In this document: in pieces, positions 802 through 52,000 of the stretch
How positions within the stretch are numbered: the stretch's first letter is position 1
Layout: each line of letters begins with the position of its first letter
From: a virus
Virus record (IMG/VR): IMGVR_UViG_3300048035_000135
Location: 1 to 64,000 of that record
Length of the DNA stretch: 64,000 nt
Direction: 5' to 3' (one strand)
Notes under the pieces: generated by a model
Databases searched by the model: none
What the model saw: only the letters and a program-made list of their open reading frames with translations
What the model was told of the DNA's origin: nothing
Position numbers and translations under genes: made by a program

Positions 802-833
802 CTAATATACGAATAATATTTGAATTAACCAAA
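802..833 (-). promoter_or_regulatory. Bacteroidota-type promoter (early/middle class)
   Basis: On the minus strand TTTG (833-830) is followed by exactly 20 bases and TATATTAG (809-802). Spacing and spacer composition match the promoters at 315-346 and 60525-60556. It drives the 91-residue gene starting at 783. The -7 box has A instead of the last T of the TTT triplet. Confidence 0.65.
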
Positions 834-11051: not shown

Positions 11052-11540
11052 TTAGTATTGTAGTATTGCGTAATCGTATGAAAGTGTTAAATCTACAGTT
11101 GCTAAATCTTCACCAGTATAGTCCATATCTGAGAACTTTGCTGTTTGAATGAATGCTCCTTTTAATGTCCACTCTTCTACTTTATCACCAACAGGACCCA
11201 AACTGTTAAATGTGATATCTTTTTTGTAGAAGTCGGAGTAACCATCTCTACCTGTTACTGATTCGTGATGTAATCTTACCCACTCCATTGCTGCTTGCGC
11301 TGCTGATGGAACTACTGGGTCGTACAATGAAATTGTTAAATCACTCCACTCACTTCTTCCTTTTACATATCTTCTAACATTGATATGGTCGATGGTAACT
11401 TTACCATTTCCTATTTCTGGTCTGTTGGCTGCCTTTATTAAGTACGCTGGAATACCCTCAATGTACATAATAAATCTGTTCGACATCTTCGGTTCGAATG
11501 ATGTGAACATTACTTCTGTTGGGTCTAATAATTGTGCCAT
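11052..11540 (-). CDS. gp19: Tail tube protein (gp19-like), 162 aa
   Basis: Major subunit of the inner tail tube. Its length equals T4 gp19 (163 residues). Visible family features are the N-terminal EVMFTSFEPKMSNRFIMYI strand, an RRYVKGRSEWSDLTISLYDP segment, and the C-terminal GAFIQTAKFSDMDY with LSYDYAILQY. It directly follows the sheath gene, has its own late-type element 27 bases upstream and a GGAG ribosome binding site, and is followed by a terminator. This arrangement allows high, independent expression, as needed for a multi-copy tube protein. Confidence 0.92.
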   Translation of the reverse strand: MAQLLDPTEVMFTSFEPKMSNRFIMYIEGIPAYLIKAANRPEIGNGKVTIDHINVRRYVKGRSEWSDLTISLYDPVVPSAAQAAMEWVRLHHESVTGRDGYSDFYKKDITFNSLGPVGDKVEEWTLKGAFIQTAKFSDMDYTGEDLATVDLTLSYDYAILQY

Positions 11541-11567
11541 TTAGTTTCTCCGTTTCTAATTCTTTAA

Positions 11568-11634: not shown

Positions 11635-14037
11635 CTATTCTGGAAATGCTGCTCCAGTTGGTAATACATTGAAATCAAGTACTATAAACTCTGCTGTTTT
11701 CGCTGGTTGTAAGAATATCTCACCAACCATAATGTTTCTATCAATCACATCTGGAGTGTTGTTGGTTTCATCCATCTTCACTTTAAATGCGTATAAACCT
11801 TGTCTTTGTTGAATTGATTCTAAGTAAGGATTAACGATTGATAAGAATCTATTTCTCGTAGCTGCTGTGTTGTTTTCGAACACTAAGTAACGAGTAGATG
11901 ATGCGATGAATTTCTTCACTGCGATTAACAATCTTCTTACATTGATTCTATCCAATGCCGATGGTTTAGCTTGTAATGTTTTCTGTCCAAATACAGTAAC
12001 ACCTTGACCAGGGAATGTTGCGATAGGATTCAATCTACCTTCATAAAGTGAATCTCTCTCAACTCTAGTCAATCTTGTCTTAGCTTCAATTACTGAAGTT
12101 AATCCACCTCTATTCAATCCTGCAGGAGCGAACCACTCAGCGGCTACTTGGTCGTTAAATGCGATAACGCCAGGAAGTACAACTGATGGTGGCACCCATA
12201 CTGGTTTGTTTTTATCAGTATTAAGTATCTTAACCCAAGGATAGTAAGATGCTACATAGTTTGAATCAAATGCTTGAACTGCGTTAACAGCCGTTGAAAT
12301 TGAATCACTCCATGCAGATGCATCCATTACAAAGAATGTATCTTGTCTATCTTCACACATATCTTTAGCGAAAGTAGTTACTGCTGAGTGTAATCTGTGG
12401 ATAACACCTGGTAATACTAACATATTGATATCAAATTCATCAGGATTAGATACTGAATTGATTGCTTTTCTGTATGCTAATGTTCCTGCTGCTGTGTTAG
12501 ATGATAAATCATATCCTTGTGAGTTTCCTGATGATATATCGTTTCCTAATGAAACAACTCTCGATGGTTTGAATCCATCAAAACCACCTTGGAATGGTAC
12601 TAAGAACTTTCTAGAGTTAATAGAAGTTACTGCATCATTCAATGAAATTGCGCCTGTATTAGGTGCTGCTGATGATGGATAATTAGCTCCACTTTCTTGG
12701 TTGTAATCACCTAAGTAGAATGCCGTACCTACTGTAGCCGTAGCTGAATCAGGAGTTGGTGCTAAGAAGTTTCTATTATCTGTTACTGCAAAATCAAAAT
12801 CTAATCCGTAGAATTTCTTAGGATTGTATGAATTATTGATTTGTTGTGCTGATACATACGTTGGATTCGGTAATGAAAGTTTACTTCCGAATGGATTTTG
12901 TAATGCTCCAAATCCGAATGGTACTAATGATTCATCAATAGCTTTATTCTTAACTGCGTTTGAAGCTTCAACTCTAATATTTTCTGAGTTGTTAGCGTAA
13001 TCACCATTTGTTGATAATTTTCCATCTGCATCTACAGTAATGTATTTATCACCGATTACTCTAACAATGTAGTTTGGTGAATCAGGGTCTAAGTTAACAC
13101 CTTGGAAGGTTTCAACTAAGTTAGGTCTGATATCTGAATCAACTACACCTACGAATGGTGAACCAGCAATCTTATCTTGGTCAACTCTTCTTACTACTAC
13201 AGTAAATGAACCATACTCAGAACCTGGTACTGTACCAGCTGGTTTGATATCTTGAATACCGATTTTGAATTCGTAGTTAGTTGCTGTACCATGTGATAAG
13301 GTATGGAACTTAAATAAGTTAGTAGTGTTACCACCAACTTTTTGTGATGTAATAAATGGTGTTGATGCTTCCGTATATGCTTTACTATAATCAATATCTT
13401 TAGCAACATCAATTGTTACTACAGGAATCTCACCAGATTTAGCGAATGATGCTGATTGGAATGTTTTAAAGTTTGTTAAAACATAAGCTTCTTCCGAACC
13501 TCTAGGTGAAAATCCAAATGATTTAGTAAAATAATTATCATTTGTTGGATTTAACGATGCTGTAAAATCTTTTTCTGTTACTTCAGAACCATTTAATTTT
13601 AATGAGAACAACGATGCTGATACATCAGATGAACCATTATGGTCTGTAATTGTTGATGTGCCAAACACATCTGTATCTGATACCACTTCATGTGTTGGGT
13701 GTAATACTGCTACTACTTTACTACCATGCGATGATGATACTGTCAATGCTACTGGATTTTCAAGAGTATATCCATCTTGTCCTAATACCCTAACGATTGT
13801 TGCAGTACCAGCATCTTCCAAATAAGCTTGTGCAGTATATGGTAGATATGAATCTTCTGTCAATCCACCGAATACTTGTTGAAACTCTTGAAAAGATGAT
13901 ACTTTAGTTGGAACGAACGCAGGTCCTTTAACTGCTGAACCTATTAATGCTGCTCCAATTTCGCCAATCCCTTGAGGTAGAAATGACAAGTCCTTTTCTC
14001 TCGTAAATACTCCAGGACTTACTATTCTTTCTGCCAT
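11635..14037 (-). CDS. gp18: Contractile tail sheath protein (gp18-like), 800 aa
   Basis: Contractile outer sheath that drives tube penetration. The N-terminus shows the sheath signature (IVSPGVFTREKDLSFLPQG, AALIGSAVKGPAFVPT, SFQEFQQVFGG). The conserved C-terminal domain (NVRRLLIAVKKFIASSTRYLVFE, FLSIVNPYLESIQQRQGLY, GEIFLQPAKTAEFIVLDF) makes the handshake interactions between subunits in this family. At 800 residues it is longer than T4 gp18 (659), with extra serine- and threonine-rich material around residues 90-420 that would lie on the outside. Strong AGGAG site 6 bases before the ATG. Confidence 0.95.
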   Translation of the reverse strand: MAERIVSPGVFTREKDLSFLPQGIGEIGAALIGSAVKGPAFVPTKVSSFQEFQQVFGGLTEDSYLPYTAQAYLEDAGTATIVRVLGQDGYTLENPVALTVSSSHGSKVVAVLHPTHEVVSDTDVFGTSTITDHNGSSDVSASLFSLKLNGSEVTEKDFTASLNPTNDNYFTKSFGFSPRGSEEAYVLTNFKTFQSASFAKSGEIPVVTIDVAKDIDYSKAYTEASTPFITSQKVGGNTTNLFKFHTLSHGTATNYEFKIGIQDIKPAGTVPGSEYGSFTVVVRRVDQDKIAGSPFVGVVDSDIRPNLVETFQGVNLDPDSPNYIVRVIGDKYITVDADGKLSTNGDYANNSENIRVEASNAVKNKAIDESLVPFGFGALQNPFGSKLSLPNPTYVSAQQINNSYNPKKFYGLDFDFAVTDNRNFLAPTPDSATATVGTAFYLGDYNQESGANYPSSAAPNTGAISLNDAVTSINSRKFLVPFQGGFDGFKPSRVVSLGNDISSGNSQGYDLSSNTAAGTLAYRKAINSVSNPDEFDINMLVLPGVIHRLHSAVTTFAKDMCEDRQDTFFVMDASAWSDSISTAVNAVQAFDSNYVASYYPWVKILNTDKNKPVWVPPSVVLPGVIAFNDQVAAEWFAPAGLNRGGLTSVIEAKTRLTRVERDSLYEGRLNPIATFPGQGVTVFGQKTLQAKPSALDRINVRRLLIAVKKFIASSTRYLVFENNTAATRNRFLSIVNPYLESIQQRQGLYAFKVKMDETNNTPDVIDRNIMVGEIFLQPAKTAEFIVLDFNVLPTGAAFPE

Positions 14038-14067
14038 TTGATTCTCCTATTAATTTCTTTTGGTTTT

Positions 14068-15818: not shown

Positions 15819-16979
15819 TTACCCTATATAAATTGCACGAGGAACTCTATTAAGAGTTAATTCCATCGCTTCAGATTCTTCTTGCTGTGCTTGTAATAAT
15901 GCTCTTCTAGAAGTAGCTTCTAAGTTTTCTCTTAACTCTGTAATTAAGATTTCTTTTTCAGATGCCGCCTCACTTCTTAAATCTGCCCCATCTAATGTTA
16001 CATCTGCGTTAGGAATTGGTATAGAACTAAATTTAGCTCTTACTGCACCTAACATTTCTTTAGCTAACGCTAATGTGTATTTTTCAATCCATCTTTTACC
16101 AACGTGATTGATGTGTTTATATTCAATTCTATCATATTTAGCATTTGAGTAATCAGATACTACTGATGCTTGTACGATTGGGTTGTTTCTTTCCGATTCC
16201 AATACATAATGAAAGTGTATTGTGTAATTATTTTGTGGAATAGGGAATATTCTGATTCTATTGTTTTGAATATCAAACCCATATTGTGATTTACGAACTT
16301 TATCGTTAAATTCAATCGCTTGTAATCTTAATAAATCATCGTAAAGTGGTTGCATCATAAATGATACACCAGGTGAGTAATTACCCCATCCAAATGTATC
16401 CATCATTTGTTGTGAACCTAAACCAGTTCCTACAAACGGGTCAAAATATCTAACCATAGCAGGTGGTGCGTTGTGCATCATCTTTTTGATTTCAAATTTA
16501 TCCGTACCAACAACACCATTTTCTAAAGATGCGCTTGAATCGGTTATATTTGTTAAATCATAAATTTGTTTTCCCTTTTTAGCTTCAAATGAACCTGTAT
16601 AATAGGTTATTGAACCACCACTACCAACTTCGCTACCATAATCTTTTGCTAATGTTACTAATCCACCTAAATTTGCGTTAAGTTGGGTTTGAGATAAGTT
16701 AGAACCAGTTGAATGCCCTTTTAATGAAAGTAAATTTTCTCTAATGTTGAATTGATTAACTTGAGATGAATATTCTGTTACCGCTTCTTCAAAACAAGCA
16801 TAGAAATTTATATCCTGTAGTTCAATATCAACTATAGGATAACCTAATCTCTTAGCACACCACCCAGCCGTTTTATCAACTGATGATTGAAACTCTGTAT
16901 CGGTATCATAATGCCCAAAAGGTGTTTTACCAGCTGAGAAAGATGATGAACCCGGCCATATTGGAATATTTACTGCCAT
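15819..16979 (-). CDS. Putative neck / head-completion protein, 386 aa
   Basis: Located where T4 has gene 13, first in the neck-tail operon. It begins MAVNIPIWPGSSSFSAGKTPFG and continues with LGYPIVDIELQDINFYACFEEAVTEYSSQ, a helix-rich block I associate with head-tail connector or neck proteins of marine myoviruses. The C-terminal half is helical with a coiled end (ELRENLEATSRRALLQAQQEE). A late-type element about 23 bases upstream and an AGGAG site fit a strong unit start. Homology to T4 gp13 itself is not visible to me, so the name rests on position and the N-terminal block. Confidence 0.65.
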   Translation of the reverse strand: MAVNIPIWPGSSSFSAGKTPFGHYDTDTEFQSSVDKTAGWCAKRLGYPIVDIELQDINFYACFEEAVTEYSSQVNQFNIRENLLSLKGHSTGSNLSQTQLNANLGGLVTLAKDYGSEVGSGGSITYYTGSFEAKKGKQIYDLTNITDSSASLENGVVGTDKFEIKKMMHNAPPAMVRYFDPFVGTGLGSQQMMDTFGWGNYSPGVSFMMQPLYDDLLRLQAIEFNDKVRKSQYGFDIQNNRIRIFPIPQNNYTIHFHYVLESERNNPIVQASVVSDYSNAKYDRIEYKHINHVGKRWIEKYTLALAKEMLGAVRAKFSSIPIPNADVTLDGADLRSEAASEKEILITELRENLEATSRRALLQAQQEESEAMELTLNRVPRAIYIG

Positions 16980-17001
16980 TTACTATCTCCTAAATCTTTT
17001 A

Positions 17002-26404: not shown

Positions 26405-28051
26405 TTACTGAATTCTGTTTAATGAATCAACAAATACTTTTCCGTAGAACTCACCTCTTAGCATTTTCTTAGCGTAACGAGTCATTACACCTTTTCTAGG
26501 AGTGAAGTTTTTCGGGTCATATACAAGAGGAGTCATAATTAACGGAATATATGGTGCATATACTGCTCCAGTTTCAAGGAATTGAGTTCCTCTATATCCC
26601 ATAAGGATTACGTTCTCTTTCATATAAGGATTCTTATAAACTTGGAATCTACTATTTAATGAACCAACTTTTGATACACCGAATGCAAATTGAGCATCAC
26701 CATTATCCGCTGAAGAAGCGTAACCTGGAATTGACTCAATGATTGTTGCAACATCTGGAGATACTACTAAGAAATTAGCACCACCTCTAAGAGTTTTTTG
26801 GTGAATAGAGTTAGATACACCAGCGATTACAGTTCCTAAAGTCTGGAACCATGCTCCCTGATTGAATGCAGATGCTCCATATTCTGAATCATCCATTGCT
26901 GCGAATGCAGAACCATTCCATACTCTACCAGCTTTAGCTGACCAGTATCCTACTGATTTAGCATCTTGCATTAACATGTCTAAGATTTCAAAATCAATTT
27001 CTTGCGAAATGTATTCTGATAACATAGAAGTTAATTCTGCTTCAGCATCAATTGAGTGATATGCGTTCAAATCTTGTGCGAATTCAGGAGTCCACTGTGC
27101 TTTTAACTTTCTAGTCTTAGCAACGATTGGTAAACTCTTCATTTCAACATTCAATTCTGGAATATCGATATCAGCTTCAGGATTGTTTCTTAAAGAAGTT
27201 CCTGTTGCTTCGAAATCACCTCTTGATGTATCAGTTGGTTGTGCGTGATACTTTACAGTAACATTATCAGCCGCATCAGCCACACCTTTTACTACGAAAG
27301 TTACATCGCCATCAGCGTTGATTGTAGTATATTGTGGGAATTGGTCTGTAATTTTAGAAGAAACAACTCTAAATCCTCTGATACCTTTTGAATCTGCATC
27401 AACGAATTCATCGTGGTGTACTGTTAATTTATATACTGAACCAGCAGCATCCATTAAACCAGCATTAGATGCTGAGAACGCTGTATCGTAGTTGTAATCA
27501 CCAGCAGATAAAGAACCAGTTGTGTATTGGTTTGCTGCTAATGTTCCGTTTACTACGTTGTTACCAGTTACTTTATCGTTGATTGAGTATCCGAATCTAC
27601 CAGCACCATACAAACCACCTGAAGGGTCTGAAGATGTTTCTGTGATACCGAATACAGAATCAGCTTGTGAATCTTTTCCAGAACCACTAGCGAAACCTGG
27701 CTGAGAAGTACCATATTTAAAGTCTAAGTAAAATACTAGACCTGATGGTAAGTTCATTGGTTGTACTGATACGAAATCTTTTGCTACGATTTCTGAGAAG
27801 ATTCTTCTTACTAATGGTAAAGCTACACCAGCCCACTCTTCAGAGTTTGCCGAAGTACCAGTAGCAGAAGCTTCTTTTACTAATTGTCTTGCTTGATTTT
27901 CTAAAAGAGTCGCAACACCAGCTTTTTCAACTTCGTTTCCGATTCCTTCAAGAAGACCGGTTTTCTCCCACTTACCAGCTAAAGCTCTTGTAGCTTCAGA
28001 TAGTCTCGCAGTGTGAGAAGAACCTTCATTTAAAATGTTTTTTAAATCCAT
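26405..28051 (-). CDS. gp23: Major capsid protein (gp23-like), 548 aa
   Basis: HK97-fold shell protein. The block DFVSVQPMNLPSGLVFYLDF near residue 92 matches T4 gp23 (GVQPMNSPTGQVFAL). A 60-residue N-terminal helix-rich propeptide is followed by VKE60-A61. This fits the T4 protease rule (hydrophobic-x-E then A), and T4 gp23 is cut at residue 65. The propeptide begins MDLKNILNEG, like the capsid-targeting motifs of nearby head proteins. Length is near T4's 521. It directly follows the scaffold gene and is closed by a strong terminator. Confidence 0.95.
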   Translation of the reverse strand: MDLKNILNEGSSHTARLSEATRALAGKWEKTGLLEGIGNEVEKAGVATLLENQARQLVKEASATGTSANSEEWAGVALPLVRRIFSEIVAKDFVSVQPMNLPSGLVFYLDFKYGTSQPGFASGSGKDSQADSVFGITETSSDPSGGLYGAGRFGYSINDKVTGNNVVNGTLAANQYTTGSLSAGDYNYDTAFSASNAGLMDAAGSVYKLTVHHDEFVDADSKGIRGFRVVSSKITDQFPQYTTINADGDVTFVVKGVADAADNVTVKYHAQPTDTSRGDFEATGTSLRNNPEADIDIPELNVEMKSLPIVAKTRKLKAQWTPEFAQDLNAYHSIDAEAELTSMLSEYISQEIDFEILDMLMQDAKSVGYWSAKAGRVWNGSAFAAMDDSEYGASAFNQGAWFQTLGTVIAGVSNSIHQKTLRGGANFLVVSPDVATIIESIPGYASSADNGDAQFAFGVSKVGSLNSRFQVYKNPYMKENVILMGYRGTQFLETGAVYAPYIPLIMTPLVYDPKNFTPRKGVMTRYAKKMLRGEFYGKVFVDSLNRIQ

Positions 28052-28079
28052 TTTTTTTCTCCGTTATTAATCTTATTAA

Positions 28080-29147
28080 TTATTTTAAACCTGCTAGCTT
28101 TTTCCATCTAGCTGATAATTCATTGCCCTCAGAAATTATTTTCTTTGGTGCTGAACTTTTTGTTGCTTTTGAAGCAAATCCTTCTTTTACAACTGTTCTT
28201 TTCTTTTTAGCGACATTTAAGTTTTCAGCTAAAGTTGAGAATACTAATTTCACTTCTCTTACTGATGATGTTCTGTCGAAGTTTTCTAAAACTTTTACCT
28301 TTTGGTTTTCGTTTAAGTCGAAAGTTCTGAACAATTTGTTAGTATAAAGTAACTTAGCGTTCAACAAATTCACTTCATTAATAGTTTTTTGTAAACTCTT
28401 AATTGTTGAATATGCTTCTTCTAACTCAGTTGCCATATCTTCATCTTCTTCATCCATTTCATCTTCTTCATTCATGTCCTCATCAGATTCTTCCATCTCT
28501 TTCAAAGTTTTAATAACTTCTTCTAAATCGATGTTTTCATCTTCTTCGTCCATTTCATCTTCTTCGTCCATTTCATCAGCTGTTTCGTGATAATTTTCAT
28601 CATTTTCATCTGCTGATTCATAATTTTCATCATTTTCATCTGCAGATGCCATTTCAGCTTCTAATTCTTCGATTACAGATTCTAAGTCTAACTCATCATC
28701 TTCATCTTCTTCAGCTTCCATTTCTTCTTCAGCTTCTTCTGAATCCATATCATCCATTTCATCTTCCATAGAATCTTCTTCAGAATCATCAGACATTTCG
28801 CCTTCTTCTTCATCCATTTCATCCATTTCATCTTCTTCAGATACTACGTCATCATTTTCACTCTCTTCCGGAGCATCAATCAAATTATCATCATTTGGAA
28901 CATCAGATGAATCAGATGCGTCATCAGATGGTTCAGCGTTATCGCCAGCACCTAAATCAGATGAATCTAATTCTTCTTCCATTTCATCTTGCTCATCAGC
29001 ATCTTCTGCTAATTTAGCTGAAATCATTGATTGTAACTTCGGAGTGAATGCCTCTTCTAAAGCCAACTTAGCGTTTGCAAGAGCAGTTTCTTTAACGGCT
29101 TTAGCATCAGCGATAGCTTCAGATAACAAATCTTTTCTATTTGCCAT
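28080..29147 (-). CDS. gp22: Prohead scaffold / core protein (gp22-like), 355 aa
   Basis: Internal scaffold for head assembly, removed by the protease. N-terminus MANRKDLLSEAIADAKAVKE and LALEEAFTPKLQSMISAKL are typical of scaffolds in marine T4-like phages. Residues about 50-240 are extremely acidic (long D/E tracts with repeated DEMDEED). The C-terminal 110 residues (NAKLLYTNKLFRTFDLNENQ, KVLENFDRT, EVKLVFSTLAENLN) resemble the conserved gp22 core. LSE-A and LEE-A are candidate gp21 sites. AGGAG site; lies directly before the capsid gene. Confidence 0.88.
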   Translation of the reverse strand: MANRKDLLSEAIADAKAVKETALANAKLALEEAFTPKLQSMISAKLAEDADEQDEMEEELDSSDLGAGDNAEPSDDASDSSDVPNDDNLIDAPEESENDDVVSEEDEMDEMDEEEGEMSDDSEEDSMEDEMDDMDSEEAEEEMEAEEDEDDELDLESVIEELEAEMASADENDENYESADENDENYHETADEMDEEDEMDEEDENIDLEEVIKTLKEMEESDEDMNEEDEMDEEDEDMATELEEAYSTIKSLQKTINEVNLLNAKLLYTNKLFRTFDLNENQKVKVLENFDRTSSVREVKLVFSTLAENLNVAKKKRTVVKEGFASKATKSSAPKKIISEGNELSARWKKLAGLK

Positions 29148-29301
29148 AGTTGTTCTCCTAAATTGTTTTTGGAAATAAGATTATTGAGAATCTTAATAGA
29201 ATATTATTACTAATATATTTTAATCATCTATTGGGAGATGATATTTTTATCTACAATAAATAGTGTACTATAAATGAAAACACTAAAAAAGTGTTTACTA
29301 T
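29148..29301 (-). promoter_or_regulatory. Leader of scaffold-capsid unit with hairpins
   Basis: This 154-base gap holds a stem (AAACACT / AGTGTTT, 29278-29296), which probably ends the bS21 transcript, then a CATTTATAG element near 29270, which resembles the late motif. A second hairpin (ATCATCT / AGATGAT, 29223-29242) follows, then an AGGAG site. The long leader suggests a stability or translation control element for the most abundant late proteins. Confidence 0.45.
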
Positions 29302-29562
29302 TTAATTTTCAAGCATCCTACGTCTGTATTCTGCTCTCACTGCTTGTTGCATTTTCTTTCTTTTGACAGCTGAAGGTTTGATATACTCTTTCCTATCTTT
29401 GAGTTCTTCAATCTTACCACTATCCTTTAATTTTCTTTTGAATGCTTTTAAGGCTAGTTCAATATTACCATTAACTACTTTTACGCCTGTTGCACAACCT
29501 GGTATATCCATATCTTCTCGCCTAATTTTTTTGTAAGGTCTTTTTTGTCTGTTATCTTGCAT
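29302..29562 (-). CDS. rpsU: Ribosomal protein bS21 homologue, 86 aa
   Basis: Small-subunit ribosomal protein bS21, which contacts the 3' end of 16S rRNA and mRNA start sites. The core VVNGNIELALKAFKRKLKD, then RKEYIKPSAVKRKKMQQAV, covers the family's conserved basic helices. A basic N-terminal extension of about 25 residues (MQDNRQKRPYKKIRRED) precedes it. The IKPS-x-V-KR core is closest, from memory, to Bacteroidota bS21. The position of the flavobacterial Tyr54, which helps hide the anti-Shine-Dalgarno, appears to be Arg here. Set within the head module just before scaffold and capsid. No ribosome binding site; the leader contains a hairpin and T8 run. Confidence 0.9.
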   Translation of the reverse strand: MQDNRQKRPYKKIRREDMDIPGCATGVKVVNGNIELALKAFKRKLKDSGKIEELKDRKEYIKPSAVKRKKMQQAVRAEYRRRMLEN

Positions 29563-29574
29563 ATAATGTTATTT

Positions 29575-29614
29575 AAAAAAAATACACCTATCACATTATT
29601 GTGGTTAGGTGTAT
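29575..29614 (-). terminator. Terminator-like hairpin directly before bS21
   Basis: Coding strand ATACACCTA / TAGGTGTAT, a 9-bp stem with further CAC/GTG pairing inside the loop, followed by eight T. It lies between the 409-residue gene and bS21, leaving about 20 bases before the bS21 ATG. It can act as terminator, attenuator or, if transcription begins at 29614-29622, as a 5' leader hairpin. Confidence 0.75.
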
Positions 29615-29622
29615 ATAAATAT
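29614..29622 (-). promoter_or_regulatory. Late-type element overlapping hairpin base
   Basis: Coding strand ATATTTATA, 19 bases after the stop of the 409-residue gene and abutting the hairpin at 29575-29614. The only promoter-like signal available to bS21. Confidence 0.5.
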
Positions 29623-32911: not shown

Positions 32912-33529
32912 CTAAATAGAACAAACACCATCAATTTCACAGATGATATCTCGTACTAATGTATTAATCTTTTTATATGAAGGTGTTTTTGCCTTTCCAA
33001 CTACTGATTCGTTCATGGGTCTCATAAATGCGCCATGTGTTGATGGGTTTGAAACAAAATCCCAACAAATTAAATCAAAATCATCTTCTACAGTAACAGA
33101 TTTACCATTACTAGCTTCTTTTACAGAACCCATACCTCTTGAAGAGATACCAACAGTACAACCTGCCTCTAAAAGTTCTTTAAGGATGTTCCCTGCTGGA
33201 GTTTTAAGTATTTCTACCTTACCCATCACATCATCACCCTTCCAATATACTTCTCTGATGATATGTGAAGTGTTTTTTAGTTCAACTACCGAAGATTCAG
33301 GATGGTCTAACTCACCAAACGCTCTATTTTCTTTGATTTCTCTATTTTTGTATTTATCCACTTCTCTTTCTAAGATTGAACGTGGATAAACTCTACCATT
33401 TTGATTTTCAGCTTCAGCACGTTGCAGGACACCATTAACAATCAACCTACCATTGTTATCTTCCAATGATTCATTGATTTGCCTCTTAGTCATAGTAAAA
33501 GGAATTGTATCTATAAGTAATCTTCCCAT
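32912..33529 (-). CDS. gp21: Prohead protease (gp21-like), 205 aa
   Basis: Serine protease of the T4 gp21 / herpes assemblin type that matures the head by cutting after hydrophobic-x-E. Start is ATG 33529 (MGRLLIDTIPF), overlapping the 44-residue gene as TAATG with GGGGAG upstream; an in-frame TTG at 33541 is not needed. Conserved blocks are RAEAENQNGRVYPRSILEREV, FGELDHPESS (His76), and CTVGISSRGMGSV (Ser129 or Ser130 as nucleophile), then DFDLICWDFVSNPSTHGA. INE20-S is a possible self-cleavage site. Slightly shorter than T4 gp21 (212). Confidence 0.93.
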   Translation of the reverse strand: MGRLLIDTIPFTMTKRQINESLEDNNGRLIVNGVLQRAEAENQNGRVYPRSILEREVDKYKNREIKENRAFGELDHPESSVVELKNTSHIIREVYWKGDDVMGKVEILKTPAGNILKELLEAGCTVGISSRGMGSVKEASNGKSVTVEDDFDLICWDFVSNPSTHGAFMRPMNESVVGKAKTPSYKKINTLVRDIICEIDGVCSI

Positions 33530-35050: not shown

Positions 35051-36922
35051 TTAAGAATCCAATATGTTTTTCTCATCCAATAATGATAAACTTTCATCAT
35101 TGGTGTCCTCTTTTAACGATTCTATTATTATTTTTTTGGTTTTTCTATTAGATTTCATACGTCCAATAACTGCATCAATCTGTTCTTGATTGATAACGGA
35201 AGTAGCGTTATATCCTTCAGGTCTTATATCAATACTTTTGTTACCTAAAGGGTCTCTACCGAATGGTGATTTATCTTTACCATACGTTCCACCTTCCTTA
35301 GGTCTACCAGCACCTTCAAATCCCCCTTCAGGAGCTCCACCTTTGTTTTCACCGAATGCCCCACCAGCATCACCACCACCTTCTTGTGTTGTTAGTGCTG
35401 CTAAATCATGTGGTGTACCAAATGATTCTCCAGTCTTAACTGGGTCATTACCTTCTTGCTCAATCTGTTCGTGTCTGAATCCTAATTTCAAATCATTGAT
35501 AACTTTGAATTGTTCTTCTTTCCATTCATCTTCACTCATATTAAAGATGTTTTTGTAAACCCACTCTTGTGATACCATTCTTAAATCTTTGATATCACTT
35601 GCTAATGATACTTTTTCAGACCAAAGGTTTGCTTTTTCTTGCTCATAAATAATAGATGGAGTAGTAAGTTCTAATTCAAAGTTTACCAACTCTTCATCTG
35701 TATAACCTTGTGAGTATAAGTGTACAATTGCAATCTTAGTTAATTCTGAAAGTACAATCTTTTGGATTCTTTCTACAGAACGAGCAAATCTAATATCTTC
35801 TTGCGCTAATGTTGCTTTACCTTCAACACCTTCTTCGTATCCAATAAATGCTTTTGGAACTTTAAGTGCTGCCATCATTCTGTTTCTTAGGTATTCGATA
35901 TCATCAATACCACCAAACTCCATTCCACTTAGAGAATCAATCTCAGTACCACTTTGTCCACCTCTAACAGGTAAATAGTAATCTTCCAACATATTCTGCA
36001 TATTGAATTTAAGATTGTAATCACCAGTAGTTTCATCAATGTATGGAGTTTTCTTCATCTGGTCGATGATGTTACTCATATATGAATCAACCTCAGCAGG
36101 TGGAATATTACCAATATCAATTTTGAAAATTCTCTTTTCAGGTGCTCTCATAATTCGATGAATCATCATCGCATCTTCCATAAGAGTTAATTGTTTCCAA
36201 GTCTTTCTTGCACCTTCTAACAATGAACGTCCATAAGGTAGGAAGTTTGTATCTGTTAATAATCTGAAATGTGCTACTTGGAATGATTCTAAAAACTTAG
36301 TGTTGTTTCTTTGTGAAATTGCATTTGTGTTTTGTTCTTCAACCTCAAATCTTACTGAATAAGGATTATCTAAATCATATCCTTCTTCTCTTCTCGTTTC
36401 ATATGCCGATAGTGGTTGTGCGTTTACAACACCTAACTCATCATCAATATCTAAGTAAAGATAGTAATCACCATATTTGTTCATACCTCTTACCCAAGAC
36501 CATAAGTTGAACTCAATGTTCAATACATCATAGAATAAGTTTCTTAATGTTTTCTTTAATTTTTCATCAGATGATTTAACTCTAAGTACATCACCCATAT
36601 CGTTTTTAAGTGTACACTCATCTGAGTATATATCTAAGATTGATGAGATAATAGAATCTTTATCCATTGCCTCATAATCTGTATATAGTTCTAATTTATT
36701 CGAATGGTAGTTAAATCTTTCATTGTATGTTTGCCAATTCTTTCTTGAGTTAGAACCATGCAATCTTCCATACCTATCATAGTAAGCTGAACCTCTTCTA
36801 TTACCATCACTTTGTAATCTTGAAGAATCAACAACTTTTAATTTATCTTTACCGACTCTTCTAACAACTACCTGAGTTGAGAATAGTCTCTTTAATCTAC
36901 CGAATAATGAAGTATCTGCCAT
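35051..36922 (-). CDS. gp20: Portal protein (gp20-like), 623 aa
   Basis: Dodecameric DNA gate at the head vertex. Family landmarks are YNERFNYHSNKLELYTDYEAMD near residue 65, SGMEFGGIDDIEYLRNRMMAAL near 330, and KVPKAFIGYEEGVEGKATLAQ, then DIRFARSVERIQKIV near 355-385. Longer than T4 gp20 (524) because of a glycine-rich stretch (residues about 510-560, GGGDAGGAFGENKGG) and a variable C-terminus. It follows the terminase and starts from its own late-type element 31 bases upstream. Confidence 0.95.
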   Translation of the reverse strand: MADTSLFGRLKRLFSTQVVVRRVGKDKLKVVDSSRLQSDGNRRGSAYYDRYGRLHGSNSRKNWQTYNERFNYHSNKLELYTDYEAMDKDSIISSILDIYSDECTLKNDMGDVLRVKSSDEKLKKTLRNLFYDVLNIEFNLWSWVRGMNKYGDYYLYLDIDDELGVVNAQPLSAYETRREEGYDLDNPYSVRFEVEEQNTNAISQRNNTKFLESFQVAHFRLLTDTNFLPYGRSLLEGARKTWKQLTLMEDAMMIHRIMRAPEKRIFKIDIGNIPPAEVDSYMSNIIDQMKKTPYIDETTGDYNLKFNMQNMLEDYYLPVRGGQSGTEIDSLSGMEFGGIDDIEYLRNRMMAALKVPKAFIGYEEGVEGKATLAQEDIRFARSVERIQKIVLSELTKIAIVHLYSQGYTDEELVNFELELTTPSIIYEQEKANLWSEKVSLASDIKDLRMVSQEWVYKNIFNMSEDEWKEEQFKVINDLKLGFRHEQIEQEGNDPVKTGESFGTPHDLAALTTQEGGGDAGGAFGENKGGAPEGGFEGAGRPKEGGTYGKDKSPFGRDPLGNKSIDIRPEGYNATSVINQEQIDAVIGRMKSNRKTKKIIIESLKEDTNDESLSLLDEKNILDS

Positions 36923-36952: not shown

Positions 36953-36962
36953 TATAAATATA
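36953..36962 (-). promoter_or_regulatory. Late-type promoter element TATATTTATA
   Basis: Coding strand TTGTATATTTATATA, 30 bases upstream of the portal ATG and just after the terminase stop. Confidence 0.7.
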
Positions 36963-36988
36963 CAAAAAATATTTTTAATATCCAAATT

Positions 36989-38557
36989 TTATAGTAACCA
37001 ACTTATATCCTCATCACCTCTACCAGTATTAATCTTCCAAGCATCTTTTGCTTTAGATTGATTTGTTTTAAAAACACCCTGCTTAGATGTTAAGGATAAT
37101 GCTCTTTTATTTAATTCGATTCCCTGCTGTCTTAATTTAAGTGCCGTATCTCTTACCCAAAGTCCTGTTGAAAATGATAATACTAAATCATCATTATAAC
37201 CTTGTTGAGCTTCAGCTCTATTACCATTCCATATAAAAACAAAAAGTTCATCAATCAATCGTTTAGAACGAACAATCGGAACTCTTTCTCTCATATAAGT
37301 ATCTAACTTTGAGATAACTAATGGACGTGTTCTACTTGTCATTGAAAAACCAGGTACCATTTGTGATTTATCTTTTAAATCATATGCTTTTTGTAAATGA
37401 ATATCTTCATCTACATATCCAAACTCTTTGTATGAATAATATAAGTTTTTGTAATTTCTATCTATTGCTTCTTGGATTACTGCCCAACCAATATTTGCGT
37501 TCTCAATCACTAATAGAGCATCGTTCCATTCAGTTGCAACATTTACTAACATATTACCATAATCTTTAGTACCTATCTTACCTTTATATTCTGCTACTTG
37601 CTCTACACTTTCTACATCAAATACGTGAAACGCTGAATAATCTGCACCATCACCTCTCGCAACATCGGCAACCACTACATAATCTTTTGTATAGTTTGGT
37701 TGTGACCATAACCAATAATTACCATCGTATCCTCGTTTCTCTACTGGGTCTTGAACATGGGTTTCTTCATACCATTGTAGAAGTTGTCCATCTACGACTG
37801 TGTAACCAGATGAAATAAAATCACAATCACATTCTTGTGCTGCCATCTTCTCACCTAAGAGTTGAGTTTGTTCTGCTCTCCACTTATCATTTCTTTCAGG
37901 ATGTACAGTCCAATGAAGTTTGATTGGATTCCATCCATCACCCTCTTCACCTTTAATCCAAGTTTTATGAAAGAAGTTACCAACACCATTTGGAGTTGAT
38001 AATACGATTGCCTTTCCACCAGTTGATAATGTAGATTGAGCTGATGCCCATATCTCATCAATACCTTTAATAAATGCACCCTCATCTATAATCAACATTG
38101 ATAATGCTTCAGAACGACCTGCATCACCACTAGCTGATGTTGCTTTGATTGTTGAACCATTTCGTAATCGTAAGGATAGTTTGTTATCTTCTTCAGTATC
38201 ACCCCTTAACCAACTCGGTAAGTTTTCATGCATATACCTAACCTTAGTAACTAAGTTTTTAGCTACCTCTTGCTTAGTTGCGATTACCAATATATTTTTA
38301 TCATCGTGGAATAACATCATCCATAAAGAATAACCAGCGGATAATGTTGAGATACCTAATTGACGGGATTTAAGAATTACATTATATCTATGTTTATCTA
38401 ACTCACCCATTACATCTTCTTGAAATGGATACAAATCAAAAAGTATCTTACCTCTCTTTGGGTGTTGAATGTAACAATACTTTTTAAAAAAGTAAACTGG
38501 GTTTTTAGCACATTTAACGTACTCTTCCCTAATAAGTTCTTTTATGTTTTTGCTCAT
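36989..38557 (-). CDS. gp17: Terminase large subunit (gp17-like), 522 aa
   Basis: Packaging ATPase and nuclease. Start is ATG 38557 (MSKNIKELIREEY), overlapping the upstream stop as ATGA with GGGAAAG before it; the in-frame TTG at 38575 is rejected. Walker A-type SRQLGIST is at residues 64-71, Walker B MLIIDEGAF near 155, and a C-motif VLSTP near 190. The RNase H-like nuclease starts VVVADVARGDGADYSAF near 295, with LLVIENANIGW near 340 and a late acidic YNDDLVLSFS near 465. Shorter than T4 gp17 (610). No small terminase subunit was recognised nearby. Confidence 0.95.
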   Translation of the reverse strand: MSKNIKELIREEYVKCAKNPVYFFKKYCYIQHPKRGKILFDLYPFQEDVMGELDKHRYNVILKSRQLGISTLSAGYSLWMMLFHDDKNILVIATKQEVAKNLVTKVRYMHENLPSWLRGDTEEDNKLSLRLRNGSTIKATSASGDAGRSEALSMLIIDEGAFIKGIDEIWASAQSTLSTGGKAIVLSTPNGVGNFFHKTWIKGEEGDGWNPIKLHWTVHPERNDKWRAEQTQLLGEKMAAQECDCDFISSGYTVVDGQLLQWYEETHVQDPVEKRGYDGNYWLWSQPNYTKDYVVVADVARGDGADYSAFHVFDVESVEQVAEYKGKIGTKDYGNMLVNVATEWNDALLVIENANIGWAVIQEAIDRNYKNLYYSYKEFGYVDEDIHLQKAYDLKDKSQMVPGFSMTSRTRPLVISKLDTYMRERVPIVRSKRLIDELFVFIWNGNRAEAQQGYNDDLVLSFSTGLWVRDTALKLRQQGIELNKRALSLTSKQGVFKTNQSKAKDAWKINTGRGDEDISWLL

Positions 38558-46019: not shown

Positions 46020-49000
46020 TTATGCAGATGGGAAGTTTTCAGCTGATACTAATGTTGCTGCTGTACTACCCATTGATGTTTGTGATAACGGTCTCGTTGC
46101 TATTATATCTAATCCTTTAAAATAAGCACCACACCTAGTCGCTTGAATTCCACCACCTGAACTACCATCTAATGCTAAATTCATAAATAATTGAACTCTA
46201 CAATATTGTGATTGCGCTTCTTCAGGTATTGTGTATGAAATTACACTACTACCTACCCTAAACCTAGTTTTAAATACATCATCTGCTCCGTTTAAATCAA
46301 ATCCACTATTTGTTATATCTGAATTTACTCTTTTCCAAACACCATGAGTATCACCAGTGACATAATACACACCCATTGGAGAATCAGGAATATCAGTAGC
46401 TGTATAATATTGGTTAGCGCTAGTTCTTTTAAGATAATCTAATTGTAATGCAAAATCTGCATTAGCGTGCATTCCAGTGGTTGTAGAGAATGAACCCACT
46501 GCTGACATTCCTGAAATTGTAAGTCTTGTTTCATATGGTAGTAAATGAAAATACCATTGTTTCATAAGAATCATTGTAGAACTATCTCTATCTGTCATAT
46601 AATACAAATCGCCATCATTAACAACCTGTCTACCAATATTTTTAGCTTCTATTAATCCAATTTCAGTATCGAATATTTTATACACAACACCACCAGCAAC
46701 TTTTCTAACATATAAGTTAGAACCTGAGATTTCACCTGATGAGTTAAGTTCGAATGCTGGTGATGAATCTGGCGAAGCTAAATTTGTTGATGATTCAATA
46801 GAATTAGAACCTATAGTAAGTCCACCAATTGTACCATCATTTGCGTTTACAGTACCATCTACTTCTAATTTAGTACCATTCCAAGATAATTTAGAATTAG
46901 AACCAGTACCACCTAAGAAGAATGTTCCTGCATCTAAATCAATTCTTGAACCTGCGGTTGGTGATACGTTGGTTGAATCTATTCTACCTGTTGATATAGC
47001 GTTACCTGATAGTGTAGTTGTTTTTGGAGTACCATTAACATTAAAACTTTCAATACCTATTTGCTTACCCCCAGTATCGTGGTACAACAACATAGCTGGG
47101 AAATAATCTTCATTAGTATTTAATCCACCATAACTTGTATTTGTATCATACGACCAAGCTGGTGTTGAAAAATCACTATTTACAAATATTCTATATGTAG
47201 CCCCACCATCGGACTTAAGTGTGATTTCGATTCTTAATTTTGTATCTGTTCCAGTTACCCAAGGAACATTTCCTTCTTTTGGTCCTCCTGTATATCCGAT
47301 GGAATTAGATTCCCAATCCACAGTGTTAGCATTAAGAATACTACCATTTTCTATCACTCTTACATCATTGTAATATTGAGAAGAGTCTTGAACCGAAGTC
47401 AGATAAACACCATGTCCTATATGGTTATAGCTATCTGCTGTGGTTAAATCTAAATCTGAATCTATATCCGTAAATCCAATGAATACATATACACCCTCAG
47501 TAGTTGTACCACGACTAGAACCACCCCCACCATCATTTACAAGAACATCCCAAACTGCAGTTGTATTGGTACTTCTTTGGAATGGTTTTCTTGTTACAAT
47601 TCCTTTAGTCCATCCATTTGCATTACTACCTTGATATCGGTTATACCCTACTTGCCCAGCTGTCGATGGTATTTTGTTTTCCGTAAGATTTTGAATACGC
47701 CATCTTAGAGTAGAATCAACTGCTTGACCAAATAATTGGTCAAATGTACTAGCTGCGAAATCTTCTGGATTGGTTACTGTAACATTACCTGTAATATTTA
47801 ATGTTGAGTTACCAGCATCCCAAGCAAATGCATTTGTTAATGAGAAATCTCCATTATCTCCTATATACAAAGGAGTATCTGCTTTACTATAGTTACCTAC
47901 TCCAGTAAATATTTTACCAGAATCAAATTTGATTCCAGCAATATCACCACCTGTTAGATGAATAGCTGAACCAGTCATCTCTCCATTTGATTTTAATCGT
48001 AAATTACCATTTGTTGAATCTATTGATGTGTTTGATATAGTAAACCCACCAATCGAACCAGCTGATGCGTTTACAGTACCTGACATACTTACATTACCTG
48101 CTGAATCTAAATGGAAGTTAGAACCTGATATTTCTATTACTCCATTAGAACCGCTAATAAATTGAGTGTTAGTATTTCCAACAAAAAACTTATCTACTTC
48201 AATGTTTACATTAGAACCACTAATTAATAATGACCTATCAGTATTATTCCAAGCTAAGTAACCACTAGTCGCTGCACTTCCACTCATTCCACTACCATTT
48301 CCACCTAAGTAGAAATTTCCACTACTATCTAAAAATGATGTGAAATCGGAAAGTAAACCATCGGTTCCTTGAATTCCATTGTGGAATCCAAACACCTGTG
48401 AATTCATTAATAATCCCGGAGAACCAATTGGTCCGATACCACTTAAACTCGCATCTAAGTATGAGAAGTCTTGGTTATTATCACCTTGCTGCCCTTGAGC
48501 TCCCTGCTTAGATTTAGATAAACTCATAGTTTTATCAACCTTTACAGTTCCAGCTGATAAATTACCACTACCATCTTTTACTTCTTTAATTTCAATATAA
48601 TCTAATCTAACTATTCCACTTTCATCAGGATGACTGGATATAAACAGTGGTGATATGTAAGCTGCGTTTGTATGAATATTTTTTGGATTATTAATATCAG
48701 GAGCTTCACCACTATTAGTTCCAGCTGATGTACCATGACCTGAGAAGTAACCTCTCTTAGTTACCCAATCTGTACCCTCTCCATCACCAAATGAAAACCC
48801 AGCCGCTCCTATATAATGTTGACTACTAAAACTGTTAGTACCACTACTATTACGTTTTGTGGTTTCATTACTCCAACCATTTACACCTATATATACTAAC
48901 CCACTACCAGCAACTCTTTTAAACCTAGCTTCAACATAATAAGTTTTAGTATCATCATAGGCAACTATATCTTTACCTACTATCCAAGCCCTATCATTAT

Positions 49001-52000
49001 CAGCATCATTACCAAATTCAACATAGTTGTTTCTTAATTCACCATCACCCGTTCCAACATTTATAGTATCAGGATTATCAACTAAGTACCAATCGTTATC
49101 AGTTCCATTAATATCACCAGTACCATTAGTTACAAATTGATTAGTTGACCAATTCTCACCGGCGTTAGCCCCCCACCCAGTATGAGGAACACCACCACTA
49201 ATTGAAGTGATTGTTACAGAACCACTATCATGCCCCATAGCAGTAACATTTAAGGATGATGAATTAAATGAATTAAAATCGTTATCAATTGTAACTCCTG
49301 TAGAAGGTACTCCATGTGTAAAGTATTCTGTTGTTTTATCGGTTACACCTTCAAATATTGTAACATCTGTTTCTGCCCCAACAAAACCACCTGATGGTAC
49401 TGTCCCATCGCTATCAGCTCCTATAGTATGTGATTCGTTACTTAGTATAACAGTTAGTCCACCAGAACCATCAGCCCCATCAGTACCATCAGCCCCACCA
49501 TCCAATGTAAATATTTTCGTACTATCACTTACACCATCTTTTGTTACACTAATTGTGATTGGGAATTTAGTTTTATTAGTTGGTGTGTTTGTTGAAAATA
49601 CTAAACTACCACTAACAATCCCAGTTCCATCCGTTAGTGAAGATGGCGCTAATGTAGGTACAGTATGAGTAGCACCCGTCCCATCTGTAATCGTAACATC
49701 ACTTGCTCCGATAGTACCATTAAGATTTTGTTGATTGAAAAATAATTCAATAGTGTTATCATCAGGCGTTGTTACAGAAGCTGATGCGAATGTGAATACT
49801 TGCGAATCAGATGTTAATGTAACTAACTTAGCACTAGAACCTGGAGTTCCATCATCTCCATCATCACCTTGCAACGCTTGTGATATTGACATTGTTTTAG
49901 ATAATTGAACTTGACCACCACCAGAACCTGATTCTGCTGTTATTACAATTGAACCAGTAAAAGGTGTTGTAGAAGCTGTAAGTGTAATTGTACCATTAAC
50001 TTTTGTTGTTGTCATATGTGATGGAGCAGTTCTTTCAAAAGTATAATTAGAACTTCTATCTGAAGTACCTTCAAATACAATCATTTCTGTATTTGCTCCA
50101 GCAAATGATATAACATTACCTGATGAACTTACAGGAAGTGTATGTGAATCATTAGTTAGTAATGCCGTTACTGCGTTTGTACCCGCAGCTCCATCTGCTC
50201 CACCAACAACTTTAAATATTTTTACTGAATCCGATAACCCATCTTTTGTAGCCGTAATTGTAATAGGAAGTTTGGCTGTATTACCACCAACACCACCTGC
50301 TGATGGGCTTGATGCGAATGTGATAGAACCACTAACAATACCTGTTCCGTTTGTAACATCATTATTATCAAATCCAAATCCAGTGATTGAATCGTTATTA
50401 ACATCTCTTACATCTATATCAGAACTACCAATTGTTAAGAATCCTAAAGAACCACTTAGGTTTTGTTGTTGGAAACTGAACTCAATTGATAATGGGTCTG
50501 CCGTATTAGAGGTACTATCTTCAAACGCAAATACTTGAGAATTTAAACTACCAATTAATAATTTAGCAGCCGTTCCATCCGAACCATCTGAACCCTGTCT
50601 TGCTTTTGTTAACGACATTGTTTTAGTGATACTAACTTGCCCACCTCCTGAACCTGATGTAGCGGTTATATCAACAGAACCACTATCGTGTCCTAATGCT
50701 GATATCGTTAATACATTTTTAGTTGCTCCAGTACCTAATGCGGAAGTAACTCCAGTTCCATCCGATTTGCTATATGTGTAGATTGAAGTTCTATCGGTAA
50801 CTCCTTCGAATACACTCATAGTTGTTGTACCACCAACAAACGATGCTATATTTCCATTTGAATCTGCAGGGAAGGTGTGAGATTCATTCGATAAGAATCC
50901 ATTTATTGCATCAGTACCATCAGTACCACCCGTACCACCTTCTACTTTAAATATTTTTAAACTATCTTCTAATCCATCTTGAGTAACTGTAATCTCTAAT
51001 GGTAACTTAGTTTTATCACCACTAACAGTTCCACTAAATGTAATAGAACCACTAACTAATCCAGTATTATTATTTAACGATGATGGGGCTAATGTAGGGT
51101 CGGTTAAAGGATTACCACTTTTATCTTTAATTACTATATCATTAACATCTACAGTAGCACTTAAATTTTGTTGATTGATTATTAGTTCTATAGTATCATC
51201 TATTGCAGTTGATGAGGATGCTGATGCAAATGAGAATACAGGTGAATCAGATGTGATTGTTAACATCTTAGCCGAATCACCAGGTAATCCTGCTGCTCCT
51301 TGCTTAGATTTAGATAAACTCATAGTTTTAACTAATTGAACTTGTGCTCCACCTGAACCTGAAGTTGCTGTGATTTTTACACTTCCACTATCGTGTGATA
51401 ATGCTGATATGGTAACTCTGTTATTACTATCAGATGCAGTTCCATCCCCAAACGAAGATGAAATTACATAGTTAGAAGTTACATTTGTTAAACCCTCAAA
51501 AACTTCCATATCGGTGAACGCACCATTGAAAGATACAATGTTTCCATCATTATCAGATGCGAATGTATGGGCCTCATTAGTTAAGAACGCAGTAACTGCA
51601 TCTGTACCATCAGAACCTGCCGTACCACCCTCTACTTTAAATACTTTTATTGAATCTGTTAAACCATCTTTAGTTGCTGAGATAGTTACAGGTAATTTAT
51701 CTTTATCAGAACCTAAACCACCAGAATTGGTTGCTGCTGAGAATGATAAACTACCGCTTACAATACCACTAAAGTTAGAATCAACATCATTATTATCTAA
51801 ACTAAAGTTAGTGATGTTTGTTCCATCAGCGCCTGTAATTGTGATATCACCACTACCAATCGTAGCGTTGTTTAAGTTTTGTTGATTGAATGAGAATATA
51901 ACAGATGTTGGTTCTGCAGTGTTATCACTCGCACTTAGGAATGAAAATACTTGCGAATCTACAGATGCTACAATATTTTTAGCATTAGCTCCACTTAAAC

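Follow-up and report, generated by a model that had tools for sequence, protein, structure and literature searches.

Can a ribosomal protein encoded by a phage alter which messages the ribosome translates? The question is open, with many proposals and little evidence. Bacteroidota ribosomes normally ignore the Shine-Dalgarno (SD) start signal. The DNA considered here, a window of 64 kb from a 95.9-kb viral record (IMGVR_UViG_3300048035_000135; positions are those of the window), carries a gene for ribosomal protein bS21 among late genes with SDs. An initial annotation proposed that this protein, with Arg in place of a Tyr54 that helps hide the 16S tail, frees the tail and biases host ribosomes toward late mRNAs. 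In F. johnsoniae, ribosomes that carry bS21 Y54A, lack bS21 or have a C-terminally shortened bS21 translate strong-SD messages 2-5x better (PMC9976891). Entry of phage bS21 into host ribosomes, with a late bias toward phage mRNAs, has been proposed earlier (PMC9723584, PMC6375957, PMC7162821, PMC9976891), and N-terminal extensions on phage bS21 have also been noted (PMC7162821). In the open-access journal papers covered, we found no report of the SD partition described below, of its link to the extension, or of the SD-less bS21 gene.

The window belongs to a T4-like (gp23) myovirus, with a gp23-type capsid, a gp20-type portal, an S77 protease and a contractile sheath; nearly all genes lie on the (-) strand (Table 1). 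The head block reads terminase, portal, prohead protease, two large genes to which we assign no function, bS21, an acidic gene and the gp23-type capsid gene, and is followed by the PhoH, neck, sheath and tube genes. The acidic gene has no family match in PHROG and Pfam profile searches; we call it scaffold-like, based on its position and acidity. The late region also holds a single 3454-aa open reading frame (46020-56384, (-) strand). There are no tRNA genes within the window; genes for tRNA-Ala(tgc) and tRNA-Ser(tga) lie near the record end (L003 15257-15421, i.e., about 95257-95421 of the record).

Table 1. Features at and around the phage bS21 gene (window positions; energies are for pairing with the 16S tail)
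Feature	Position	Strand	Details
Bacteroidota-type promoter ahead of SD-less gene 508-783	802..832	(-)	score 27.8; best reverse-strand score 0.2
Tail tube gene	11052..11540	(-)	gp19 Pfam 1e-4, under curated cut-off; SD GGAG 11548-11551, -9.5 kcal/mol
Tail sheath gene	11635..14037	(-)	PHROG 23, 6e-70; SD AGGAG 14044-14048, -7.3 kcal/mol
Neck gene (head-tail adaptor Ad2)	15819..16979	(-)	PHROG 211, 6e-12; SD AGGAG 16987-16991, -7.9 kcal/mol
Major capsid protein gene	26405..28051	(-)	PHROG 138, 7.5e-74
SD (GGAG) of capsid gene	28059..28062	(-)	-6.6 kcal/mol
Acidic scaffold-like gene, next after bS21	28080..29147	(-)	AGGAG 7 nt from ATG, -7.3 kcal/mol
SD (AGGAG) of scaffold-like gene	29155..29159	(-)	
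Phage bS21 gene	29302..29562	(-)	86 aa, ATG start; PF01165 7e-12, TIGR00030 4e-14; SD-less
Arg76 codon	29335..29337	(-)	HMMER alignment to 7jil, family alignment
N-terminal extension of bS21	29497..29562	(-)	basic stretch of about 22 aa with motif IPG....V.V; aligned with F. johnsoniae bS21 and relatives
Conserved hairpin in bS21 leader	29582..29614	(-)	fold z -2.2; T tract 29575-29582 after
Late-promoter-like motif TATTTATA upstream of bS21	29614..29621	(-)	
Prohead protease gene	32912..33529	(-)	PF03420 4e-35; SD present, -7.0 kcal/mol
Portal gene	35051..36922	(-)	PHROG 213; SD-less, -2.5 kcal/mol; host-type promoter ahead
Bacteroidota-type promoter TTGGATATTAAAAATATTTTTTGTATATTTA ahead of portal gene	36955..36985	(-)	score 21.3 (at 36985)
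Terminase large subunit gene	36989..38557	(-)	PHROG 2, 4e-45; SD present, -5.8 kcal/mol

Profile searches identify the small gene as bS21. Its core scores 45.3 bits against Pfam PF01165 (curated cut-off 27) and 52.1 bits against the NCBIfam equivalog TIGR00030 (cut-off 28.95), and the protein also matches PHROG 21469. The two best matches among PDB chains, 9i5v (E 1e-9) and 7jil of F. johnsoniae (E 1e-7), both have Tyr at position 54. In the window protein the aligned counterpart of this residue is Arg76, in agreement with the initial annotation, with a tyrosine (Tyr79) three residues beyond; the aromatic residue 54 of Bacteroidia-type, anti-SD-sequestering bS21 is thus replaced. An AlphaFold model is small, helical and of moderate confidence, and does not bear on whether the extension moves the 16S tail; Foldseek gave no significant match to it.

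Two criteria were applied to leaders: RNA duplex energy with the 16S tail ACCUCCUUUCU, which we take to be of the F. johnsoniae type (published tail A1534-U1544), and the presence of SD cores at the correct distance. Gene starts follow a simple calling rule; genes at 3-46 kb were counted as late and genes at 80-96 kb of the 95.9-kb record as early. An SD core precedes 81% of late genes, as compared with 12% of shuffled leaders; for early genes, the figures are 10% and 7%. Applied identically to T4, the method gives an even distribution (48% early, 57% late). The enriched leader words are those complementary to the 16S tail (GGAG 9.9x, AGGA 5.2x), with a peak at -12 to -10, whereas GAAG is depleted (0.5x); purine-richness in place of a true SD is therefore rejected. 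The clear SDs reported for the scaffold-like (TTAGGAGAACAACT-ATG), capsid (CGGAGAAAAAAA-ATG), sheath (AATAGGAGAATCAA-ATG), tube (ACGGAGAAACTAA-ATG) and neck (TTAGGAGATAGTAA-ATG) genes are real, with pairing energies of -6.6 to -9.5 kcal/mol. Exceptions within the late block are the portal gene and a few small ones, which have no SD. It is unlikely that the early/late split is an artefact of bad early start calls, because T4 early genes score normally with the same method, and because genes immediately behind promoters, where the start is more reliably placed, lack SDs.

The bS21 gene itself has no SD, in agreement with the initial annotation. Its leader (TTTTTTTTAAATAACATTAT-ATG) scores +2.0 kcal/mol, the weakest among 39 late-block leaders, whereas an extended SD below -13 kcal/mol would be expected ahead of a Bacteroidia-type, anti-SD-sequestering bS21; McNutt et al. 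describe an SD of -13 kcal/mol as characteristic of host rpsU regulation (PMC9976891). Among 58 phages with an extended bS21 (see below), an SD core is found on bS21 in 5/58, on the next gene in 55/58 and on the previous gene in 34/57. Given the contrast between bS21 and its downstream neighbor, the lack of an SD is a conserved trait, as would be expected if SD-blind ribosomes must make bS21.

The leader has other conserved elements. The late-promoter-like motif TATTTATA occurs upstream of genes 19 times in the window record, as compared with 3.1 in shuffles, and is also enriched in the phage group. In bS21 leaders of the wider clade of the window phage, the motif is directly followed by the hairpin and usually then by a T tract. 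The hairpin is supported by covariation, with 8 of 11 pairs changed on both sides among 24 sequences; none of 500 shuffles was as good, and sliding the arms abolishes the signal. A covariance model of the hairpin finds one strong match per genome, always at bS21. Rfam has no match in the bS21 region, hairpin included, and a scan for intrinsic terminators did not report the hairpin, the loop of which exceeds the length allowed by the scan. The hairpin could be a message-stabilising 5'-end structure, a terminator of upstream genes, or a regulatory site. In three SD-less capsid relatives (L281, L284 and L301), the TATTTATA motif often stands just 10-20 bases ahead of the start codon, a placement that would give very short or nearly leaderless late mRNAs; Flavobacterium phage immuto has a similar peak 20-30 bases upstream.

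The initial annotation gave the host as likely Bacteroidota. The primary sigma consensus of Bacteroidota has TAnnTTTG at -7 and TTTG at -33 (PMC7366714), and is matched by promoters of the form TTG-N20-TAnnTTTG in this phage group. The window record has seven sites (with TAnnTT[TA]G), as compared with 0.5 expected; with a weight matrix trained on relatives, scores reach 28.8, as compared with 0.2 on the reverse strand. Sites are likewise in excess in phage Mel-JY01 and in six relatives, whole or large, with 6 to 20 per record as compared with 0.5 to 1.6 expected. None of the seven promoter-led genes in the window record has an SD; for the window record and six relatives together, 8/67 do and 59/67 are SD-less. 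Immuto was isolated on Flavobacterium and lacks the promoter motif; absence of the motif is therefore uninformative about the host. Two phages with extended bS21 and Tyr54 (G009 and G083) also lack it, and their host is less certain. For the window phage, the promoters, the closest bS21 proteins, of which the best solved ones are Bacteroidota-like, and the relationship to Flavobacterium phages together make a Bacteroidota host likely.

Mel-JY01 (L004 / PP395634), a member of this group, has 18 Bacteroidota-type promoters, as compared with 1.0 expected, but is filed under the host Microcystis elabens; the label may be wrong, and the culture may have held Bacteroidota. Three contigs of the phage group (L035, L036 and L037) sit in bacterial MAGs, assigned to an uncultured bacterium, Maricaulis and another bacterium; they lack bS21 and are likely misbinned. 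These contigs with capsid relatives gave no reliable host; the phylum drawn from the MAG of L035 is made up of small genomes.

The association of bS21 with SD use extends well beyond the window. Viral contigs supplied the capsid relatives, each of which was scored for bS21 and for SD use. Because most contigs are fragments, a phage counted as lacking bS21 lacks it in the head region, or in its entire record where all of it was searched. The bS21 proteins of many relatives have an N-terminal extension of 11-42 residues that is basic and usually contains PG or EG with V.V after it; in most cases the gene is found some 1.3-1.7 kb ahead of the capsid gene. In a first set, the capsid leader has an SD in 56/59 phages with an extended bS21 and in 1/53 without. 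In the final set, to which distant relatives were added and in which one contig was corrected (L044, where the bS21 gene is cut by the contig end), the counts are 70/73 with an extended bS21 and 1/54 with none or an unextended one. Extended bS21 from more distant relatives goes with SDs in 43-90%. The early/late partition is likewise shared: among orthologues of window late and early genes, respectively, SDs are found in 30/38 and 2/27 (G000), 15/24 and 4/21 (G001), 11/21 and 1/13 (G005), 15/25 and 2/14 (G006), 9/20 and 2/14 (G007), and 10/19 and 1/8 (G004). In Mel-JY01 and G083, SDs are spread more evenly over the genome.

Which property of bS21 goes with the SDs? Possession of any bS21 is rejected as the determinant, since phages with a host-like, unextended protein are SD-less. 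All well-sampled cases of unextended bS21 with aromatic residue 54 are SD-less, among them L369, which shares 52% identity with the window phage in its capsid protein. Residue 54 is rejected as well. About half of the relatives with extended bS21 keep Tyr or Phe at this position and have equally many SDs (capsid-leader SD in 30/33, as compared with 26/26 for Arg/Lys; p 0.17), and L074, with Arg54 and an extension of only seven residues, is SD-less. By comparison of these sequences, the N-terminal extension is the feature of bS21 that tracks SD use. Among the exceptions, L381 has SD-led genes despite an unextended bS21, and L105 is a weak case. The two traits cluster on the capsid tree and follow clades. 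Independent contrasts number three with support, each of them running as expected (sign test p 0.25), and six at most on the best tree, where all that were scored agree with expectation and none is opposite.

We see about an even chance that the extended phage bS21 replaces host bS21, frees the anti-SD and thereby favours SD-led late messages. The extended protein would occupy the 30S site of host bS21 and leave the 16S 3' tail free to pair, so that ribosomes otherwise blind to SDs would come to prefer late messages that carry them. Early genes, with host-type promoters and no SDs, would be translated by unmodified ribosomes, which could also start the SD-less bS21 message. As ribosomes are converted, translation of bS21 would lag behind that of genes with SDs, giving a simple form of negative feedback; the host shows the reverse arrangement, with a strong SD on rpsU alone. 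Incorporation into host ribosomes, release of the anti-SD, action through the extension, and timing are the steps that we infer. The more elaborate reading, in which one swapped protein makes a specialised ribosome for the late programme, run by the virus, and the SD-less bS21 message behind its leader hairpin supplies the feedback, is tentative, and we put it somewhat short of even. What survives of the initial annotation is thus the logic of a bS21 swap biasing ribosomes toward late mRNAs, which fits SDs on late genes, their absence from early genes and bS21, and the family-wide tie; the proposed action through residue 54 does not survive.

Several points count against the switch. Pairing of the phage SDs (-5 to -9.5 kcal/mol) falls short of the -13 kcal/mol of host rpsU, so the phage protein would have to make the anti-SD more accessible than it is when bS21 is simply absent. 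In addition, the supported contrasts are only three, L381 is an exception, and the SDs of Mel-JY01 and G083 are more even. The bS21 type and the SDs might instead both be markers of the host, with extended-bS21 phages infecting SD-using hosts and their SD-less relatives infecting Bacteroidia. The clade-wise distribution of the trait pair would fit, as would the Microcystis label of Mel-JY01, the sole bacterial host on record for an extended-bS21 phage, and the SD-rich genomes of L381, L386 and L387, which have unextended bS21 with a non-aromatic residue 54 and resemble phages of SD-using hosts. Against this, early genes are poor in SDs and late genes rich in them in the window record and six relatives, unlike T4; the early promoters fit the Bacteroidota consensus, the closest solved relatives of the window bS21 are Bacteroidota-like, and many members share with Bacteroidia a Tyr or Phe at position 54. 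We consider a host effect unlikely, though not negligible.

It is also conceivable, if rather improbable, that the late SDs serve host ribosomes stripped of bS21 during infection, by turnover or phage-induced removal, while the phage protein has another task such as stabilising the 30S subunit, the extension helping it to compete for the site. F. johnsoniae ribosomes without bS21 do gain SD use, and the same authors suggest that phages may promote bS21 exchange (PMC9976891). Yet a further supply of bS21 would cancel the gain in SD use unless the phage version acts differently, and phages with host-like, unextended bS21 are SD-less, which argues that the kind of bS21 matters. That the SDs have nothing to do with bS21, reflecting another phage factor or mRNA stability, with bS21 an ordinary hitch-hiking ribosomal gene, is very unlikely: although the tie is a sequence association with few independent contrasts, the co-occurrence is near perfect, the place beside the scaffold and capsid genes is conserved, bS21 is consistently SD-less, and the spacing of the SDs is correct. 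Least credible is the original proposal that the change from Tyr54 to Arg alone frees the 16S tail. It draws on the alignment of Arg76 with Tyr54 and on the increased SD use of Y54A ribosomes in F. johnsoniae (PMC9976891), but is contradicted across the family by the equal SD use of Arg/Lys and Tyr/Phe phages and by L074.

The preferred reading, replacement of host bS21 by the extended protein, differs from known systems in specific ways. Chen et al. described freshwater Bacteroidetes phages with bS21 in the myovirus head-gene region, and likewise proposed ribosome substitution with a late bias (PMC9723584). All 61 of their phage bS21 proteins have an aromatic residue 54, from which host-like action was inferred, and the gene lies on the opposite strand (PMC9723584). 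By contrast, the window gene shares the strand of the head genes, encodes an extended protein with Arg, and is accompanied by late SDs. A separate group among our relatives (L304-L324), likely of the Chen type, has host-like, unextended bS21 and is SD-less. The rpS21 of huge phages also has a basic N-terminal extension, predicted to aid preferential initiation on phage mRNAs; in the text covered, no link is drawn to SD use of late genes (Al-Shayeb et al., PMC7162821), and the present group includes phages well under 200 kb. In F. johnsoniae autoregulation, as in the proposed switch, the state of bS21 on the 30S subunit controls SD use, but rpsU is the sole strong-SD gene and bS21 closes the anti-SD (McNutt et al., PMC9976891), whereas the phage gene is SD-less among SD-led genes and its product is the proposed opener. 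For Pelagibacter phage HTVC008M, entry of the phage bS21 into 70S ribosomes was demonstrated in E. coli; its host is alphaproteobacterial, and ribosomes with this protein are poorly active in E. coli extract (Mizuno et al., PMC6375957). Immuto (MW353175) shares the head-gene order and a capsid protein 56% identical to that of the window phage but, unlike the latter, has no bS21 and no SDs anywhere (3%, as compared with 5% in shuffles).

The predicted targets can be read from the genome, as SD-led late genes on one side and SD-less early genes and bS21 on the other; the candidate for the acting part is narrowed to the N-terminal extension, residue 54 having dropped out; and nature supplies contrasts in phages with no bS21, a host-like one or an extended one. 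With published F. johnsoniae reporters and purified ribosomes, the idea of a specialised ribosome can thus be put to a direct test.

Two further observations concern the phage group as a whole. L381, L386 and L387, with their SD-led genes, are probably phages of SD-using hosts; the capsid protein of L381 is 57% identical to that of the window phage, which suggests that the group crosses host phyla. In L230, the left half, including the capsid gene, is SD-less and the right half has strong SDs (to -13.3 kcal/mol), so that the contig looks like a mosaic phage or an assembly chimera.
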